NCBI RefSeq assembly: GCF_000799165.1
Contig: NZ_JUGF01000002.1
Coordinates: forward strand, 620,001-684,000
Direction: 5' to 3'
Source: Methylotenera versatilis 7
Lineage (GTDB): Bacteria > Pseudomonadota > Gammaproteobacteria > Burkholderiales > Methylophilaceae
Length of the DNA: 64,000 nt
The notes under the pieces are model-generated. The model made no database searches and was not told where the DNA came from. It saw only the letters and a list, made by a program, of their open reading frames with translations. Position 1 is the first letter of the stretch; every line of letters begins with the position of its first letter. The translations under genes and the position numbers were made by a program. Below are positions 16,709-25,406 of this stretch, one piece after another.

Positions 16709-18868
16709 ATGAAAAAAACAAATCGTTCTAAAGGAGGTTTTTTAATTAAGCCTCTGGTATCAGCATTAACAATGGCTTTTGGTGGTATGGCGTTTGCTGA
16801 AGAGCCAACACCATCTCTACCTGAAGTTAAAGTGGAAGCAAAAAAAGACAATGCTTATAAGGTAGATAAATCTGCAAATCAAAAATTTACTGCACCTTTA
16901 ATTGATACACCTAAATCCATCACTGTTATCACTGAAAAAGTCATTAAAGACAGTGGGGCAAACTCGTTCCAAGATGCATTACGTACTGCTCCTGGCATCA
17001 CTTTTGGCACTGGTGAAGGTGGCGGTCCTATTGGCGATCGTCCATTTATTCGTGGTTTTGACGCGCAAAGTGCAATATTTGTTGATGGTATGCGCGATTT
17101 GGGTTCTCAGCAACGTGAGGTCTTTGCAATTGAACAGCTAGAGGTTCTAAAAGGCCCAAGTGGTGCATTTGATGGTCGTGGATCGGCAGGCGGCAGTATT
17201 AATGTTGTGACAAAAAAAGCCAAGGCAGATAACTTTACGACAGGCTCAATTGGTTTAGGCACGGATAGTTATCGTCGTGCCACGGTAGATGCCAACTATA
17301 TGCTTGGTGACAATGCTGCAATTCGTTTAGTGGCTATGACACATGATGCCGACATTCCTGGACGAGATTCTGTTGATACCCAAAGATGGGGATTTGCGCC
17401 TTCAATCACATTAGGTTTAAATTCGCCAACGTCAGCTACCTTAAGCTGGTATCACCTAGAAACAGATGATATGCCTGATCGTGGCCTGCCATATCGTGAT
17501 AACAGCGGCAATGTAAAAAGCCAGCCTGTGAGTGTGAGCAAAGATAATTTCTATGGCTTGAAAGGACGAGATTACCAAGAAACAGGTGCAGATATTGGTA
17601 CTTTTGAGCTTAAGCATGCATTTGACGATAATGTGGTATTGCGGAATACAACACGTTATGGCGAAACCAGTAATGAATATATCGTTACCCGCACATTGCC
17701 AAGCATTGCCAATCAGGCAGCGAATATTGCTCCCCGTACTGGTCAAGGTCGTAAGGCAGAAACAACCTCAATTGCCAACTTAACGGATATTTCCATCTCG
17801 TTTTCTACAGGGGGGATCAAGCATCAAGTAAATACTGGGGTAGAGTTTAGTAAGGAAGAAACTGATCAGTTTACAGCATCAATTGTAGGTGTAAATCCAA
17901 ACGCTAATTTCCAGAACCCTAATCCAAATGACCCATGGAATGGGACTACTTCTTTCAGCAGTCGCCCAACAAGCACCACAACTAGTAAAAATACCTCTGT
18001 TTATGTTTTTGATAGTATTGAACTAAACAAGGAGTGGTTAGTGAATGGCGGTGTGCGCTACGACAAATTTAGAGTAGAAAATAATTCAGCGAGTGCAGAT
18101 CATGGCTTTTTCAATTATCAGGCAGGTGTTGTTTACAAAGTACAACCAAATGCAAGCATCTATGCATCTTATGGTACTTCGTCCACGCCAGTCGGATTAT
18201 CCAATGGTGATGGTAATCAGGAAAATGGTAACAACCTTTCTGCGGCATTGGAAGACTTAAAGCCAGAGCGTACTAAGAATTTTGAGGTTGGTACAAAATG
18301 GGATGTTCTTGAAGGACTTTCATTGACTGCAGCAGCGTTTTATACGAACAAATCAGATGCCAGAGTGCTGCTTGCCGATGGTAGTTACGGAAATGCAGGT
18401 GAATTTGACGTAAAAGGTGTTGAGTTTGGTGCTGCTGGCAAAATTACAGATAAGTGGGACATTTTTGCAGGCTATACGCATTTAAATAGTGAGCAAGCTA
18501 AAGCTGGTAGCGCATTAGGAAGTCACCGTGATTTAGGTGCTGCACTAAACAAAGGTAATGATATGCCTGGCGTTGCTAAAAATAGTGCAAGTATTTGGAC
18601 AACATATAAATTATTACCTAAACTGGCGGTTGGTGGTGGAGCATTCTATGTAGATAAAGTCTTCGCTGATCCAGGTAACAAATTATTCGTGCCTTCATAT
18701 GTACGTTGGGATGCAATGGCTACGTATGAAATTGATCCGAGATTCAGTTTGCAACTTAACTTACAAAACCTGACAGATAAACGTTATTTTAACCAAACGT
18801 ATACACGTCATTTTGCAACAGTTGCACCGGGTCGTTTGTCCTTCCTTACACTAAACATGAAATTCTAA
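16709..18868 (+). CDS. TonB-dependent siderophore receptor, Fiu-like
   Basis: Outer-membrane receptor of 719 residues. An N-terminal signal peptide (hydrophobic LVSALTMAFGGMAFAEE) is followed by the plug domain (FTAPLIDTPKSITVITE as TonB-box-proximal region, then QLEVLKGPSGAFDGRGSAGG) and a beta barrel ending in FLTLNMKF with a terminal aromatic residue. Of the known receptors it most resembles Fiu, which takes up catecholate iron complexes. The pairing with a PiuC-type hydroxylase downstream is the standard Fiu-YbiX arrangement and supports iron uptake. AAAGG precedes the ATG. A lanthanide-complex substrate cannot be excluded but nothing in the sequence shows it. Confidence 0.9.
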   Translation: MKKTNRSKGGFLIKPLVSALTMAFGGMAFAEEPTPSLPEVKVEAKKDNAYKVDKSANQKFTAPLIDTPKSITVITEKVIKDSGANSFQDALRTAPGITFGTGEGGGPIGDRPFIRGFDAQSAIFVDGMRDLGSQQREVFAIEQLEVLKGPSGAFDGRGSAGGSINVVTKKAKADNFTTGSIGLGTDSYRRATVDANYMLGDNAAIRLVAMTHDADIPGRDSVDTQRWGFAPSITLGLNSPTSATLSWYHLETDDMPDRGLPYRDNSGNVKSQPVSVSKDNFYGLKGRDYQETGADIGTFELKHAFDDNVVLRNTTRYGETSNEYIVTRTLPSIANQAANIAPRTGQGRKAETTSIANLTDISISFSTGGIKHQVNTGVEFSKEETDQFTASIVGVNPNANFQNPNPNDPWNGTTSFSSRPTSTTTSKNTSVYVFDSIELNKEWLVNGGVRYDKFRVENNSASADHGFFNYQAGVVYKVQPNASIYASYGTSSTPVGLSNGDGNQENGNNLSAALEDLKPERTKNFEVGTKWDVLEGLSLTAAAFYTNKSDARVLLADGSYGNAGEFDVKGVEFGAAGKITDKWDIFAGYTHLNSEQAKAGSALGSHRDLGAALNKGNDMPGVAKNSASIWTTYKLLPKLAVGGGAFYVDKVFADPGNKLFVPSYVRWDAMATYEIDPRFSLQLNLQNLTDKRYFNQTYTRHFATVAPGRLSFLTLNMKF

Positions 18869-18909
18869 TGTTTGCATGAATTAGTATCGTTTTAAATGCT
18901 TTGTACAAT

Positions 18910-18950
18910 AAAACCCTCATAGATAAAATGCTATGGGGGTTTTGTTATTT
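18910..18950 (+). terminator. Terminator after TonB receptor
   Basis: Stem AAAACCCTCATAG (18910-18922) and CTATGGGGGTTTT (18931-18943), one G-T wobble, eight-base loop, followed by a T-rich tract. Because the PiuC-like gene starts 20 bases later, it may only partly stop transcription. Confidence 0.75.
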
Positions 18951-18970
18951 CTTAAGAACGTGGAGTTTAT

Positions 18971-19654
18971 ATGCTAATTGAAATACCTAATGTATTAACC
19001 AAACAACAAATACAGCAATGCAGGCAGTTGATGTGTGAAGCAGAATGGGTGGATGGAAATGTAACTTCCGGCACGCTGTCTGCACTGGCCAAAAATAACA
19101 TGCAGTTACCGGAAGGTTCGCCTGCGGCTAGGCAGATTGGCGATGTTATTCAAGATGCTTTGGGTTTAAATGCACTATTTATTTCAGCTGCTTTGCCGCT
19201 TAAAGTGTTTCCACCTTTATTTAACCGCTATGAGACTGGGCAAGCATTTGATACACATGTAGATAATGCAATACGCCAACTACGTGGAACGAACTTCCGC
19301 ATCCGTAGTGACTTATCGGCCACATTGTTTTTCTCTGAACCGGATGAATATGAAGGTGGGGTGTTAACAATTGAAGACGTCTTTGGATCACAAGAGGTGA
19401 AGTTGGCAGCCGGCTCTATGGTGCTTTATCCATCTAGTAGTTTGCACCATGTTACGCCAGTTGTTAGCGGCACACGGATATCTTCTTTTTTCTGGATGCA
19501 AAGCATGGTGCGGGATGATGCGCATCGCACGTTATTATTTCAATTAGATAAATCTATACAAAAACTTACCATTGACAGGGGAGGCAAAGATTTTGAGGTT
19601 GTCAGCCTTACGGGGATCTATCATAACTTGCTCAGAATGTGGGCAGATAGCTAA
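18971..19654 (+). CDS. piuC: Fe(II)/2-oxoglutarate-dependent PKHD-type hydroxylase, PiuC/YbiX-like
   Basis: Cytoplasmic 2-oxoglutarate dioxygenase-fold protein of 227 residues, the usual length for PiuC. The iron ligands are H96 and D98 ([10 protein letters not shown]) and H159 (SSLHHVTPV); R169 ([10 protein letters not shown]) would bind 2-oxoglutarate. Genes of this family regularly sit next to TonB-dependent siderophore receptors, as here, and are needed for iron or siderophore-drug uptake by a mechanism that is not settled. ATG lies after a terminator-like hairpin, with GGAG a few bases before it. It is probably iron-regulated with the receptor. Confidence 0.9.
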
Positions 19655-20668: not shown

Positions 20669-20689
20669 ACAGACCTGTCTGCTTATAAT
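20669..20689 (+). promoter_or_regulatory. TetR-type operator A and -10 box before ferredoxin-like gene
   Basis: ACAGACCTGTCTGC at 20669-20682 is a near palindrome with arms CAGAC and GTCTG around CT. A perfect -10 hexamer TATAAT follows at 20684-20689; the -35 (TTAAAA, 20659-20664) is weak. The operator therefore fills the promoter spacer, the position expected for a repressor. The same 13-base core recurs at 21018. Confidence 0.7.
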
Positions 20690-20716
20690 TGTTTGCCATT
20701 TAAAGGACGATTGCCA

Positions 20717-21001
20717 ATGGATCTTTCTAATAAAAAATTGCCCCCAACACTGCTTGTCTGTATGCAAAAACGATATGCGCCTAATCCTGAATGTTGTGCA
20801 AATAACGGCAGTTTAGAAATCCTGATGGAATTACAACAAAAATCAAAACTAATGAACGTGGATATACATGTAATGAAATCTAGCTGCATGATGATGTGTG
20901 AAATTGGTCCCAACATCAGGCTTACGACGAACGGAAAGGTTTGGAATAAAGTAACCAGCCAGATGATTGAAGTTATTTTGGAGGAGTGCAAGCAAAGATA
21001 A
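20717..21001 (+). CDS. Thioredoxin-like [2Fe-2S] ferredoxin-domain protein
   Basis: Small soluble protein of 94 residues of the (2Fe-2S) ferredoxin-domain family with thioredoxin fold (COG3411-like). LLVCMQKRYAPNPECCANNG and the later SSCMMMCEIGP give the C-x(10-11)-C and C-x3-C pattern of cluster ligands. The ATG at 20717 has AAAGGA ten bases upstream; a longer frame from TTG 20693 is ruled out because the predicted transcript starts about 20696. Operator A controls it. It may carry electrons for, or sense redox with, the neighbouring genes; no partner is proven. Confidence 0.8.
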   Translation: MDLSNKKLPPTLLVCMQKRYAPNPECCANNGSLEILMELQQKSKLMNVDIHVMKSSCMMMCEIGPNIRLTTNGKVWNKVTSQMIEVILEECKQR

Positions 21002-21007
21002 AACTTA

Positions 21008-21036
21008 TTGCAAATGAACAGACCTGTCTGTACAAT
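21008..21036 (+). promoter_or_regulatory. Promoter with TetR-type operator B before 4-TM protein gene
   Basis: -35 TTGCAA (21008-21013), 17-base spacer, -10 TACAAT (21031-21036). ACAGACCTGTCTGT (21018-21031) fills the spacer and is identical over 13 bases to operator A. Binding there would block RNA polymerase. Confidence 0.75.
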
Positions 21037-21079
21037 TAATTTGTAACAAATTATTTCAATTACAAATAGGGAGAAAGAC

Positions 21080-21472
21080 ATGGAAGTATTATTGTTCGGT
21101 GCTGTTGCCTGTGTTGTTGCATTGATTTCCTCAGCTTGGCTGATGACATTCGCAAAGTGGTTTCCAATCAACGGTGTTGATGCGTTCGTCATTGACTATA
21201 AAACTTTAATCAGAGCACACGTAGACTACGCATTAATGGCGTTATTTGGGCTTGGATTTTATGGAACGGGAATTGAATTGCCGACAATCGCTTGTTGGTG
21301 TTTAGCTATTGGCGGCTTCACTAACCCCACAATATTTACTATCGCGGCATTTGACACAGAGTTTTGGTCTAAAATGAAATGGAAAGTATTTACTGCAGTT
21401 AGTTTTATGCTTACCACCATCGGTTTTCTTTGGATTGCTTACGCATTATTTGTGCATGCCATGTCACATTAA
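21080..21472 (+). CDS. Unknown four-helix inner-membrane protein
   Basis: Membrane protein of 130 residues with four predicted transmembrane helices at about residues 2-23, 47-66, 68-90 and 99-124, and a short polar loop FPINGVDAFVIDYKTLIRAH after helix 1. GGGAGA lies before the ATG. I do not recognise the family with confidence; the layout is faintly like small four-helix mutase or quinone-site proteins, but no motif settles it. It has its own promoter with operator B, so it is probably co-regulated with the ferredoxin-like gene upstream and by the TetR protein downstream. Confidence 0.75.
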   Translation: MEVLLFGAVACVVALISSAWLMTFAKWFPINGVDAFVIDYKTLIRAHVDYALMALFGLGFYGTGIELPTIACWCLAIGGFTNPTIFTIAAFDTEFWSKMKWKVFTAVSFMLTTIGFLWIAYALFVHAMSH

Positions 21473-21503
21473 GTACAACTTTAAATCATGAATTGAGGTT
21501 GAT

Positions 21504-21629
21504 ATGTTCATCTATTCGAAATTAAAGTTCGGTCAAAATTCTATGCAACACAATATTCATGCACTACAAGATAAGATTTCAGAAATAAAAGACGTGCTCT
21601 TTGATGTTTACTTATCTTTGTTTGAGTAA
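21504..21629 (+). CDS. Possible 41-residue small protein
   Basis: ATG 21504 is preceded at good spacing by GAGG (21495-21498) and opens a 41-codon frame (MFIYSKLKFGQNSMQHNIHA, then a helical LQDKISEIKDVLFDVY). It lies 31 bases after the 4-TM gene and could be the last gene of that transcript. No family is recognised. A second short frame at 21659-21814 lacks a ribosome-binding site and is not called. Confidence 0.35.
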   Translation: MFIYSKLKFGQNSMQHNIHALQDKISEIKDVLFDVYLSLFE

Positions 21630-21929
21630 AACTTAATATGTAAATGCGGCAAAAATTGATGGCATTGAAATTAACGCTAGAAGATCTTTGCCGCAAGCAT
21701 GCGCGAGATGAGATTGGTTATCGCAAGTCCCAGCTTATGTATAAGCCGCACTCTTCCGCCTCAGTAAAAAGCATAGGCGCCCCAAAGTGGGCGCTGATAT
21801 TCGCTGCATTTTAAAAACTGATATATGCTATAAAGTTAAAGCGAAAAGAATTAATTATGCAGTACGCAGTTTTAGTAGCTCCTCATTCCGAATGGCCTTT
21901 ACCCTGATTACGTTGATTTTAAACATTTG

Positions 21930-22679
21930 ATGACAAGTAAATTACTACAATCTATTGAACTAAAAAGCGCTATTGCTGCGAGCGGTAATAATCCTATCGA
22001 TCGTATTTCGAGCTTTGCGGACATTTTGTCCAAACTAAGTGGCAATCCCGATAGGTATGAAGCATTGCGCAAATTAGCTGAGAATCTTGACTCTGAAGAT
22101 GTTAACTCTTTAAGAGGTTTGATTTTTGAAGAGGTTAGAAAATTAAAATATCTCAACGCAATAGAGGTCACTGAGCAAATATTATTTTTAATCATCGGCG
22201 CACTAAAGCTGGATGCTAAACATGGATCTTTTACGGATCCTTGGTATTTAGCCAATTTAAGTATCAAGTCTTTAATTAAGAAAAACAATAAATTTAATAG
22301 TTTTAAATACACTTTTCTCAGTTTGGTTTTTTTATCAATTGGAGCATTACTTTGGTTTGCAGGTACAAAATATAACACTGACCATCGTTCAAGTAATTCA
22401 CCAGCTCTACATTTCAACGAGTTAATTCCTTTGCCAGAGCCCGTTCTGAATCCCTATATTCCCAGTCATTTTTATTCATTAAAAGCGCATATGGACAAGA
22501 CTACCTGTCAATTTCCGCAAGCAGCGATGCTACCTGCTGACCAAAGAGCTGCCTTTCTAAATTTTATAAATACGGGGAAGATTGCTTTAGAAGAACTGTC
22601 AAATTTACAAAAAGCACTTACGCGCGTAAACTGCGACTACACGCCATTGACATCCCGATTGATACCGGTGAATAAATAG
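21930..22679 (+). CDS. Unknown single-pass membrane protein upstream of tetR
   Basis: Protein of 249 residues with no family I recognise. The N-terminal 120 residues are helical and charged (KLSGNPDRYEALRKLAENLD), probably cytoplasmic. One transmembrane helix lies at about residues 126-146 (LSLVFLSIGALLWFAG). The remaining 100 residues should be periplasmic and contain two cysteines (TTCQFPQAAM and RVNCDYTPL) that could form a disulfide. ATG 21930 follows an in-frame TTG; neither has a strong ribosome-binding site. Only eight bases separate its stop from the TetR gene, so both are probably one operon. Confidence 0.65.
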   Translation: MTSKLLQSIELKSAIAASGNNPIDRISSFADILSKLSGNPDRYEALRKLAENLDSEDVNSLRGLIFEEVRKLKYLNAIEVTEQILFLIIGALKLDAKHGSFTDPWYLANLSIKSLIKKNNKFNSFKYTFLSLVFLSIGALLWFAGTKYNTDHRSSNSPALHFNELIPLPEPVLNPYIPSHFYSLKAHMDKTTCQFPQAAMLPADQRAAFLNFINTGKIALEELSNLQKALTRVNCDYTPLTSRLIPVNK

Positions 22680-22687
22680 AGAAGCAA

Positions 22688-23257
22688 GTGGTCACTGTAG
22701 ATATGAAGTCTAAAATTCTTGGAACTGCTGCGATGTTATTCGAGTCGCGAGGAATTAATGCGTCCGGTATTGATACAATCATTGCGGAAACTGGTGTTGC
22801 AAAATCTACTTTGTATAGACATTTCCCAAGTAAAGATCTTTTGATCATTGCATTTTTAAGAAACAAGGCAGATACATTTTTTGATTGGCTAAAATCTGGA
22901 CTCGTCAGTCAGGAAGCCAAGAAAAATGACAAGTTAACTCAGCTATGTGACTTGCTAGAAGAATGGATATCAACACCTGAATACAGAAGTTTACCTTTTC
23001 ATATAGCGACTATCGAATTTCCCGATCCAAATCACCCTGTAAATCAATTTTCCACTGTTCTAGCCAAAGAATTACAAAGCTTCCTCTGTGTTATCGCTGA
23101 AGAAGCAAAGGTTAAGGATCCTATGTCTTTGGGGCTTCAGCTTACGATGCTCTTTGAAGGCGCCTCATTAGTAGAAAAAATGTCACCAGGCTCAGGCGCT
23201 GCATCTCGAGCTAAAAGTGCTGCATTAATTATTATCAAGGCTTCACGTCAAAAATAA
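22688..23257 (+). CDS. TetR-family transcriptional regulator next to xoxF
   Basis: Regulator of 189 residues. The N-terminal TetR helix-turn-helix reads LGTAAMLFESRGINASGID, then ETGVAKSTLYRHFPSKDLL. The C-terminal ligand domain shows no known ligand signature. The start is GTG 22688 with GAGAAG upstream; ATG 22703 is the alternative. It sits between the unknown membrane protein and xoxF, all on the plus strand. The repeated palindrome at 20669, 21018, 23363 and 23400 is a plausible binding site, which would make it a repressor of the ferredoxin-like and 4-TM genes and a regulator of xoxF. Confidence 0.88.
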   Translation: MVTVDMKSKILGTAAMLFESRGINASGIDTIIAETGVAKSTLYRHFPSKDLLIIAFLRNKADTFFDWLKSGLVSQEAKKNDKLTQLCDLLEEWISTPEYRSLPFHIATIEFPDPNHPVNQFSTVLAKELQSFLCVIAEEAKVKDPMSLGLQLTMLFEGASLVEKMSPGSGAASRAKSAALIIIKASRQK

Positions 23258-23350
23258 TTTTTTGATTAATTTTATATATTTTTAAATATATTATTAATCA
23301 ATAAGTTATATCTAAATGCAACTCCTTTGTAACAAATTGTAAATAAACGC

Positions 23351-23413
23351 TTGCCAAACGATACAGATCTGTCCTAAACTACGTTTACTATTAATAGAGA
23401 CAGACATGTCCGT
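23351..23413 (+). promoter_or_regulatory. xoxF promoter region with two TetR-type operators (C and D)
   Basis: Operator C, ACAGATCTGTCCTA (23363-23376), and operator D, ACAGACATGTCCGT (23400-23413), match the A/B sites at 11-12 of 14 positions and are 37 bases apart. A possible promoter is TTGCCA (23351-23356) and TAAACT (23375-23380), which places C in the spacer as at the other two genes, and D just downstream of the start. The leader to the xoxF ATG would be about 140 bases. Confidence 0.55.
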
Positions 23414-23528: not shown

Positions 23529-25406
23529 ATGAAAATTAAAAAAGTTAACTTAGCTTTAGGATTGGTTGCAAGCGTAGCATTGGCCATGCCGATGGTAGCT
23601 CTTGCAGCAGCAGATCAAGAAGCGGCAATGAAAGATCCGAATAACTGGGCGCATCCACGTGGTCAGCACGACAACCAAGGCTATAGTAAACTAGCTCAGA
23701 TTAATAAAGCTAACGTAAAAAATCTTAAAGCTGCCTGGACATTCTCAACCGGTGTAAACCGTGGCCATGAAGGCTCACCAGTGGTTATTGGCAACATGCT
23801 GTATGTCCACACAGCATTCCCAAACAACGTATACGCATTAGATTTAAACGATAACCAAAAAATCGTTTGGTCCTATTTCCCAAAACAAGACCCGTCAGTA
23901 CAAGCAATTATGTGCTGCGATGTAGTAAACCGTGGTCTTGGTTATGGCGATGGTAAAATATTCTTACAACAAGCAGATGGCACCCTAGTTGCTCTTAATG
24001 CTAAAAGTGGTGAAAAAGTTTGGGATGTTAAAGTTTTAGATCCTAAAATTGGCGCATCAAATACAAACGCTCCACACATTGTGAAAGATAAAGTTTTAAC
24101 CGGTTGTTCAGGTGCAGAGTTTGGTGTACGTTGTTATTTCAGCGCATATAACATTAAAGATGGTTCATTGGCTTGGCGTGCATACCATACAGGCCCAGAT
24201 AGTGACATCTTACTAGGTGCGGATTTTAATAAAGAAAATCCTGCATATAGTGCTTTATCAGTTTATCAAGACGTAAACGGCGGTAACAAAATTGGCGGCT
24301 CGTTCAAAGCAATTCCAGCCGACCAACTAAAAGTTGGCGAAAAAGAACTAGGCGTACGCACATGGTTGAAACCACAGGCAGTTAAAGATGGCTGGCAACA
24401 TGGTGGTGCTTCAATCTGGGGCTGGTGGCCATATGATGCTAAAACTAATTTAATTTATTACGGTACTGCCAACCCTTCAGTTTGGAACCCAGATGTCCGT
24501 CCAGGCGACAACAAATGGTCTATGACTATTTTTGCCCGGGACTTAGATACCGGTATGGCTAGATGGGGTTATCAAATGACGCCACATGACGAGTGGGATT
24601 ACGATGGTATTAACGAAGTAATCTTGTTTGACAAAGGTGGCAAAACATACGCATGGCACCATGACCGTAACGGTTTTGCGTATACATTCGTTGCCGGTAC
24701 AGGTACGTTGGTTGCTGCAGAAAAAGTACATCCATTCGTTAACTGGGCTACGCATGTGGACTTGAAAACAGGCATACCACATAAAGACGCTAAATACTCA
24801 ACTCACCAAGACTACAATGCTAAAGGCATCTGCCCGGCTGCATTGGGTACTAAAGACCAACAACCAGCGGCTTACTCACCAAAAACTGGTTTGATGTATT
24901 CTCCATTGAACCACGTATGTATGACATACGAACCGGTAGAGTCTAAATACGTTGCTGGTCAACCATGGGTTGGTGCGACATTAACCATGTTTGCTGGTCC
25001 TGACGGCGTGATGGGTGGTTTTGCTGCATATGATCCAATGACCAACAAAAAAGTTTGGTACAACAAAGAGAAATTCTCTGCTTGGGGCGGCGCTTTAACG
25101 ACGGCTTCAAACCTAGTGTTCTACGGCACACTAGACCGTTGGTTCAAAGCAGTTGACGCACAATCAGGTAAAGAACTTTGGAAATTCCAAGTAGGTTCTG
25201 GCGTGATTGGTAATGCATTCACATACGGCAACAAAGGCAAGCAATACGTAGGCGTGCTATCAGGTATCGGTGGCTGGGCTGGTGTGGCGATGAACCTTGG
25301 TTTGACTAATGACACAGATGCACTGGGTGCTGCTGGTGGTTATAAAGAACTAACTCAACACAACGCTGCTCCTGGAGCTGGTAATTTGAACGTATTCAGC
25401 TTGTAA
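23529..25406 (+). CDS. xoxF: XoxF-type PQQ- and lanthanide-dependent methanol dehydrogenase
   Basis: Periplasmic quinoprotein oxidising methanol to formaldehyde or formate, 625 residues with a signal peptide cleaved near VALA/AADQ. PQQ-propeller features include HEGSPVVIG, adjacent cysteines C129-C130, CSGAEFG, a GTANPSVWNPD block, and PHDEWDYDGINE at about residues 353-362; the second aspartate of DYD marks lanthanide-type XoxF, where calcium MxaF has alanine. A longer segment around GADFNKENPAYSALSVYQD fits the XoxF4-like type of Methylophilaceae, by inference. GGAG six bases before ATG 23529 fixes the start. No cytochrome xoxG or xoxJ follows; a terminator does. Regulation by the adjacent TetR is likely. 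Confidence 0.95.
   Translation: MKIKKVNLALGLVASVALAMPMVALAAADQEAAMKDPNNWAHPRGQHDNQGYSKLAQINKANVKNLKAAWTFSTGVNRGHEGSPVVIGNMLYVHTAFPNNVYALDLNDNQKIVWSYFPKQDPSVQAIMCCDVVNRGLGYGDGKIFLQQADGTLVALNAKSGEKVWDVKVLDPKIGASNTNAPHIVKDKVLTGCSGAEFGVRCYFSAYNIKDGSLAWRAYHTGPDSDILLGADFNKENPAYSALSVYQDVNGGNKIGGSFKAIPADQLKVGEKELGVRTWLKPQAVKDGWQHGGASIWGWWPYDAKTNLIYYGTANPSVWNPDVRPGDNKWSMTIFARDLDTGMARWGYQMTPHDEWDYDGINEVILFDKGGKTYAWHHDRNGFAYTFVAGTGTLVAAEKVHPFVNWATHVDLKTGIPHKDAKYSTHQDYNAKGICPAALGTKDQQPAAYSPKTGLMYSPLNHVCMTYEPVESKYVAGQPWVGATLTMFAGPDGVMGGFAAYDPMTNKKVWYNKEKFSAWGGALTTASNLVFYGTLDRWFKAVDAQSGKELWKFQVGSGVIGNAFTYGNKGKQYVGVLSGIGGWAGVAMNLGLTNDTDALGAAGGYKELTQHNAAPGAGNLNVFSL

Follow-up and report, generated by a model that had tools for sequence, protein, structure and literature searches.

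A candidate TetR regulon with a membrane-anchored TetR-like protein at methanol-oxidation genes of Methylotenera versatilis 7

Background

Control of the xox and mxa methanol-oxidation genes is ascribed, in the available part of a 2024 review (PMC11845868), to the two-component systems MxbDM, MxcQE, MxaY with the orphan regulator MxaB, and PedS2/PedR2; the available part of the MxaY paper (PMC5018670) agrees with two-component control. According to Beck et al. (PMC4109929), Methylophilaceae hold two to four copies of the mxaRSACKL cluster, and the available part of that paper names no regulator for it. Here we describe a candidate regulon of a TetR-family repressor in a 64,000-nucleotide stretch of Methylotenera versatilis 7 (the window; G000:C1:620001-684000 in a genome of 2.5 Mb). 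It comprises a ferredoxin-like gene, a gene with four transmembrane helices (4-TM) and a xoxF gene; the tetR gene is preceded by the gene of a membrane protein, here named TMp. The open-licence literature, searched by titles and abstract openings, gave no case of TetR control of methanol-oxidation genes, no membrane-bound TetR, and no description of how Methylophilaceae control their multiple methanol dehydrogenase and maturation clusters; a wider title search likewise gave nothing similar to a membrane-bound TetR. The operator motif was not found in the open-licence literature either. This suggests, but does not prove, that a TetR with a membrane-anchored partner is new, as far as the open-licence literature goes.

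We favour, at a probability of about 0.53, a model in which a TetR repressor and a membrane-tethered partner, TMp, relay a periplasmic signal to methanol-oxidation genes.

Results

The genes and candidate operators follow each other on the forward strand of the window.
20669..20682, +: operator 1 (ACAGACCTGTCTGC), directly upstream of the -10 box TATAAT of the ferredoxin-like gene; one of five genome-wide core matches
20717..21001, +: ferredoxin-like protein (thioredoxin-like [2Fe-2S]), 94 aa; Pfam and NCBIfam scores below cut-off, conserved cysteine positions
21018..21031, +: operator 2, in the 17-bp TTGCAA/TACAAT spacer of the 4-TM gene; its palindrome, ACAGAC-CT-GTCTGT, is perfect
21080..21472, +: 4-TM membrane protein, 130 aa; four-helix model, pLDDT 92; no Pfam match above cut-off
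21927..22679, +: TMp, a cytoplasmic domain resembling the C-terminal part of TetR, without helix-turn-helix (HTH), followed by one transmembrane (TM) helix and a cysteine tail (profile and model)
22688..23257, +: TetR-family regulator, GTG start eight bases past the end of the TMp gene (alternative ATG at 22703); TetR_N E 2.7e-13
23363..23376, +: operator 3 (ACAGATCTGTCCTA), in the 18-bp TTGCCA/TAAACT spacer upstream of xoxF
23400..23413, +: operator 4 (ACAGACATGTCCGT), some 20 bases past the -10 box of xoxF, on its downstream side
23529..25406, +: xoxF, PQQ (pyrroloquinoline quinone)-dependent methanol dehydrogenase; TIGR03075 621.6 bits, cut-off 480

Operators and promoters

The initial annotation had claimed four copies of a palindromic motif, and all four are present. 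The 13-mer ACAGACCTGTCTG is exact at 20669-20681 and at 21018-21030, and both looser copies are found at their positions upstream of xoxF. The copy at 21018-21031 extends to a perfect 14-base palindrome of the 6-2-6 type. Both exact copies had also been placed in promoter spacers before a -10 box. This is so for the copy at 21018 (TTGCAA-17-TACAAT), but the one at 20669 precedes TATAAT (20684-20689) without a good -35 box. As read from the sequence, site 3 lies within its spacer and touches the -10 box, and site 4 lies outside any spacer.

The operators occupy the spacer or the region right behind the -10 box, a position suited to repression. A few TetR regulators activate transcription, and the window TetR might do the same. 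We consider this highly improbable, since a dimer bound at these positions, read by eye, would hinder RNA polymerase.

At up to two mismatches, there are five strand matches at three distinct places; the mean in shuffled sequences is 0.58, and none of 100 shuffles reached five. The exact 13-mer occurs three times in the whole genome, the third copy adjoining a paralogous TMp-tetR pair. The 11-base core ACAGAYMTGTC, common to the four sites and defined after four of its five occurrences had been seen, is found five times in the genome, always in the regulon, and its reversed control twice. The fifth match, at C2:585860, lies between moxR, the head of an mxaRSACKL-like cluster, and the second TMp-tetR pair. 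Looser settings yield matches at background level: 14-mer matches with two mismatches were rejected as evidence, as they are not enriched (43, control 58), and a one-mismatch scan of 26 genomes (93 matches, control 119) was therefore kept out of the counts.

The regulator and its paralogue

The TetR protein of the window has a TetR_N domain (Pfam, 49.9 bits, cut-off 24). Its C-terminal part has no Pfam TetR_C match above cut-off, and the PDB matches to TetR proteins of solved structure reach profile residue 158 (3g7r). Relatives with 55-64% identity were observed in 23 other genomes of 100 in the family, and one paralogue in the source genome. The latter, at C2:586810, is 64% identical, and the operator at its own locus is identical. 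The xoxF-linked TetR proteins (window, G010, G030) stand apart from the mox-linked ones: 86% of bootstrap trees unite them in one clade (support 85/40). Two loci of this tree, L324 and L328, are not from methanotrophs.

One possibility is that the shared operator is worked in the window by the other TetR at C2:586810, with the local TetR redundant or diverging. In G010 and G030 the xoxF-linked type is the sole TetR with at least 55% identity, and the site at their xoxF is ACAGACCTGTCTGA, as if TetR proteins of either clade recognised one sequence. However, the window tetR is an open frame beside three presumed promoters, and cross-talk is compatible with local control. We find this reading improbable; it would change the acting protein and leave the regulon as it is.

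Conservation of the operators in Methylophilaceae

TetR of the window clade (at least 55% identity) is present in 24 of the 100 family genomes and the exact 13-mer in 25. Both occur together in 23, TetR only in one, the motif only in two, and neither in 74 (Fisher 2.8e-19, not corrected for relatedness). The reversed pattern gave five matches in the same genomes. In the genome with TetR only, G037, the sites differ by one or two bases; the genomes with the motif only are G021 and G043. Of the 32 exact sites, three are strays (L060, L064 and L067). The other 29 belong to related genes: 19 are found between moxR and TMp-tetR, one at moxR alone, two at xoxF, four at the 4-TM gene, two at a distant 4-TM paralogue and one at the ferredoxin gene. 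Named relatives from the family include Methylotenera, Methylophilus, Methylovorus, Methylobacillus and Methylophilaceae bacterium 11; in named genomes, 20 of 22 Methylophilaceae loci contain a site that has no more than one mismatch. In the 19 divergent moxR/TMp regions the operator directly follows the consensus TTGc...TAatAT. These promoters were read by eye from the consensus; the picks of an automated promoter scorer were mixed, most of all for moxR. Phylogenetic footprinting thus gives strong support to the TetR regulon with these operators that the initial annotation had proposed.

More distant TetR relatives (33-34% identity) in Richelia (L328:2601) and Tepidiphilus (L361:1207) have a perfect 14-base palindrome directly upstream of their own genes. 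To judge from these sequences, a broad subfamily of TetR proteins may use the 14-base operator.

Target genes

The usual predicted targets are the mxaRSACKL maturation cluster, divergent from a putative TMp-tetR operon, and the 4-TM gene. The cluster on C2 is a row of six genes, with MoxR AAA, DUF58 and two VWA genes above cut-off. The protein in the MxaK position has TPR matches below cut-off only, and the one in the MxaA position has no match.

The 4-TM gene (at least 71% identity) is present in 12 genomes that bear a window-type TetR, and in all 12 ACAGAYCTGTCT lies at most 100 bases upstream, between the -35 and -10 boxes as read by eye. Genomes that have the 4-TM gene without this TetR have a sister operator, ATATACAGAYCTGTATAT, in five of the five readable cases (L234, L236, L238, L241, L242); in a sixth genome, G004, the region is cut by the contig end. 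The sister operator may belong to a related regulator, TetR-B, and the switch between the two operators could be used to map the recognition residues of TetR-A and TetR-B. In G010 and G030, whose 4-TM gene is more distant, the first motif was not found before that gene. In L085 and L086 (genomes G066 and G093) the exact operator is found upstream of a more remote 4-TM paralogue, on another contig than the window-type tetR; this paralogue shares 39% identity with the copy beside tetR in G001. The 4-TM protein was considered as a relative of styrene oxide isomerase, and this was rejected, as no PDB sequence match at E of 1 or less and no fold match at E of 0.001 or less was found.

The ferredoxin-like protein has cysteines 15, 27, 57 and 61, at the same positions in the copy of G037; its matches to Pfam 2Fe-2S_thioredx (E 0.0087) and NCBIfam fdxn_Azotob (E 6.7e-5) are both below cut-off. 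The genes for type B TetR, ferredoxin, 4-TM and TMp lie together in G005, G018 and G026, with moxR as well in the latter two, and in G037 the window-type tetR stands together with the other three genes in the same way. The repeated grouping points to an old neighbourhood. Two operator cores, ACAGGTCTGT / ACAGATCTGT, lie 17-19 bp apart between tetR-B and the ferredoxin-like gene of G018 and G026 (L375:4013-4041 and L376:4433-4459).

The translation of the window xoxF contains DEWDYDG, whose DYD includes the extra aspartate for the lanthanide. The gene is one of four matches at E of 1e-100 or less in the source genome, among the matches listed.

TMp, a membrane-anchored relative of half a TetR

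The gene before tetR had been annotated as an unknown membrane protein. It does encode a membrane protein, whose family is kin to the C-terminal domain of TetR without the DNA-binding part. No Pfam match above cut-off was obtained for TMp, and no TetR_N domain was found in the window protein, 20 further proteins of type A (the window type), four of type B and four of type C. Neither a histidine kinase nor a receiver domain was found in TMp or TetR.

The kinship is seen in profile comparisons. TMp-A (21 rows) compared with 55 TetR proteins by hhalign gave a probability of 91.3 and P 9.6e-7, with a score of 50.3; none of 200 column shuffles scored above 24.8. For eight TMp-B proteins compared with the same TetR set the probability was 98.9 (P 3.4e-17), and for TMp-A with TMp-B it was 99.8. 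In another alignment mode, controls with six neighbouring families gave at most 5.3 and reversed profiles at most 3.8, and TetR-A and TetR-B gave 23.7 to 39.8. In blastp, TetR residues of about 62-187 align with residues of about 5-122 of TMp-B and TMp-C at 29-36% identity (15 best rows; best E 1.4e-19, small set), and among the TetR proteins with direct matches to TMp-B and TMp-C is that of the window (best 1.8e-10). Where hidden Markov model (HMM) matches span the domain, they begin at TetR positions 63-67, just past the HTH. A Foldseek search with the AlphaFold model of TMp returned TetR-type proteins such as EthR2, KstR and FadR, assigned by title or known identity, in 41 of the 50 rows listed, with probabilities up to 1.0.

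The TM helix of the window protein covers residues of about 128-146, numbered from the ATG at 21930. Lysine and arginine are richer before than after the helix in 16 of 17 proteins (in the scan a different helix was chosen for TMpC_G010), which points to a cytoplasmic N-terminus. Beyond the helix, the tail cysteines C193 and C235 are invariant, as are L33 and Q83, in 18 of 18 aligned proteins. By sequence, TMp appears to be a relative of half a TetR and not itself a TetR.

TMp-A profile matches were observed in 72 of the 100 family genomes. Of 94 TMp places, 92 are at most 2 kb from a tetR, 90 of them on the same strand. Seven rows were excluded from this count: four second pieces of genes, two inside tetR genes and one weak row in G026, 453 bases from a tetR, whose inclusion gives 93 of 95. 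Conversely, TMp is near 92 of 102 tetR places (among the matches listed, those with E no worse than about 1e-37, together with a single partial row). Tight tmp-tetR pairs of type C are found in G010, G030, G035, G047 and G062, and the TMp-TetR design appears to exist in at least three paralogous versions (A, B and C). At L419:6543-9660 a TMp-C/tetR-C pair lies directly upstream of a gene, in two open frames, that resembles a PQQ dehydrogenase by eye. In 300 genomes of the order, with at most eight candidates scored per genome, full-length TMp was found in five genomes, all of them Methylophilaceae. Six genomes from other families have partial matches of about 94-120 positions, and 269 genomes have none; four family members of 1.3-1.4 Mb gave no TMp match among the matches listed in this search.

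Two further regions of the window were noted. Between the 4-TM and TMp genes, at 21640-21814, a stop-interrupted frame (...SIGAPKWAL...) looks by eye like the tail of an H-NS-family protein and is perhaps a gene remnant. At 16709-19654 there is a TonB-dependent receptor gene followed by a gene for a PiuC-kind Fe/2-oxoglutarate hydroxylase-like protein, both named by eye.

Proposed mechanism

The following steps, from binding and repression to heterodimerisation, membrane orientation, the direction of the switch and the signal, are what these comparisons point to. A TetR homodimer would bind the 6-2-6 palindrome ACAGAC-NN-GTCTGT at the ferredoxin, 4-TM and xoxF promoters, within their core or at their start, and shut them off, and the paralogous TetR would do likewise at the divergent moxR(mxaRSACKL)/TMp-tetR promoters elsewhere in the genome. 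TMp would consist of the effector and dimerisation domain of TetR minus the DNA-binding head, anchored in the membrane and ending in a periplasmic tail that has two invariant cysteines. TetR proteins dimerise through the C-terminal domain. As this is the part shared by TMp, pairing of TMp with the repressor would be natural, and TMp could hold or alter it at the membrane. Most likely, TMp would pair with the repressor via the common dimerisation domain. A periplasmic signal (our guesses are thiol redox state or the condition of the methanol dehydrogenase system) would alter the pairing of TMp and TetR, and the repressor drawn to the membrane would release the methanol-oxidation genes. As an origin of this kinase-free design we tentatively suggest that a duplicated repressor lost its head, gained an anchor and a two-cysteine sensor, and now heterodimerises with the intact TetR.

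Several observations weigh against the model. The AlphaFold model of TMp has a mean pLDDT of 76 (about 90 in the N-terminal domain) and a pTM of 0.50, and all Foldseek E-values exceed 0.1. The comparison of TMp-A with the 16 closest TetR proteins is weak (probability 37, P 3.5e-4). Of the 483 blastp pair matches, 482 fall on TMp-B or TMp-C. The window TMp has no blastp match at E of 1e-3 or less among 60 TetR proteins and no match to the TetR HMM at E of 10 or less, and those TMp-A rows that do match this HMM do so weakly and mostly in its last third. For the window TMp, the case therefore depends on how it is related to types B and C. Furthermore, the region upstream of the window TMp-tetR genes has no operator (best 5 mismatches), and thus autoregulation is not seen at this locus.

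Two facts concern xoxF. Site 3 has three mismatches from the palindrome and would not be conspicuous alone. A site with at most one mismatch is present in three of 61 xoxF promoters (that of the window and 60 others from 21 TetR-bearing genomes, among the matches listed, with the three copies of G001 left out), namely those of the window, G010 and G030, and 58 have none. The sites before xoxF might then be fortuitous, with xoxF under other control and the regulon reduced to the ferredoxin and 4-TM genes. This is quite unlikely in our estimate: two of the five genomic core matches lie 37 bp apart in this single promoter, and in G010 and G030 the xoxF gene, beside TMp and a tetR of the same branch, has one-mismatch sites about 180 bases upstream. 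All three site-bearing xoxF genes adjoin TMp and tetR. The xoxF tree does not show them as a single clade: the G010 and G030 genes are sisters, and the window gene belongs to a set without clear branching order, separate from both other copies of its genome included in the tree. Row L095 of this tree is the same gene as L057, unlabelled, and label counts were not used.

The link between the regulator and xoxF put forward in the initial annotation is thus borne out in sequence in these three genomes but rare elsewhere, and in relatives the motif is kept at the 4-TM gene and at moxR/TMp-tetR but mostly missing at xoxF. We rejected xoxF as a general main target. The usual methanol-oxidation target predicted from these sites is the mxaRSACKL cluster, and the link to xoxF appears real here but rare.

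Finally, invariant residues in the C-terminal domain of TetR include H101, E106, H112, E124, Q126 and E153; with histidines and glutamates among them, an ordinary small ligand is possible. In the gammaproteobacterial methanotrophs L313, L319 and L325, a tetR relative (38-39%) is divergent from a 4-TM gene with a ACAGACCNGTCTGT-like operator between them, and no TMp was found beside it by tblastn at 1e-4. Such a TetR can thus work without TMp, and this arrangement is perhaps ancestral. In ten tetR/4-TM spacers of gammaproteobacterial methanotrophs, the best site has zero or one mismatch in three, two in one, and three or four in six. The invariant residues and the methanotroph relatives with no TMp found beside them would suit an ordinary one-component TetR with a small cytoplasmic ligand, as most TetR regulators are, TMp being a degenerate duplicate or an operon product without a role in signalling. 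We think this rather unlikely. The proximity of TMp to tetR in nearly all its places, in three divergent classes, and the four residues kept in every aligned protein speak against it, as a decaying copy would be unlikely to preserve them.

If the model of a TetR with a membrane-tethered TMp partner is true, conditions in the periplasm, the site of methanol oxidation, are passed straight to a cytoplasmic TetR, and the design couples methanol dehydrogenase maturation, one xoxF and the little-known module of ferredoxin-like and membrane proteins. Through the HTH-less membrane partner, a periplasmic signal would then reach a TetR operator with no kinase involved, and such a design might serve as a modular sensor. 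The regulon is also a starting point for work on the 4-TM and ferredoxin-like genes, which are unnamed and accompany methanol oxidation.

Comparison with known systems

The closest solved TetR repressors by profile (3g7r, 3jsj, 8z6d and YxaF, 1sgm) are similar in the TetR_N domain, the neighbouring targets and the palindromic operator in the promoter. The window TetR differs from them in that the neighbouring gene encodes a membrane-anchored protein without HTH, akin to the C-terminal domain of TetR itself, and in its predicted targets, the accessory genes of methanol dehydrogenase and, here, xoxF.

Dominant-negative partners that keep the dimerisation domain and miss the DNA-binding part are known: TrlR, the partner of TraR, and the eukaryotic Id proteins. 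TMp likewise has no DNA-binding part; it differs in being fixed in the membrane and in continuing past it with a further domain, and titration of the repressor by TMp would be hypothetical. Mlc is held at the membrane by EIICB-Glc, a transporter unrelated to it. The proposed release of promoters via capture at the membrane would be similar, whereas TMp is homologous to its repressor. CadC and ToxR have a single TM helix between cytoplasmic and periplasmic parts, a periplasmic cysteine pair, and the DNA-binding domain on the membrane protein itself. TMp would share the layout and the cysteine pair, but has no DNA-binding domain.

The systems MxaY/MxaB, MxbDM and MxcQE act on the same pathway, and there too a membrane protein feeds a DNA-binding protein (available parts of PMC5018670 and PMC11845868). 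However, they are described there as histidine kinases with response regulators, and in the TMp-TetR pair neither a kinase nor a receiver domain was found.

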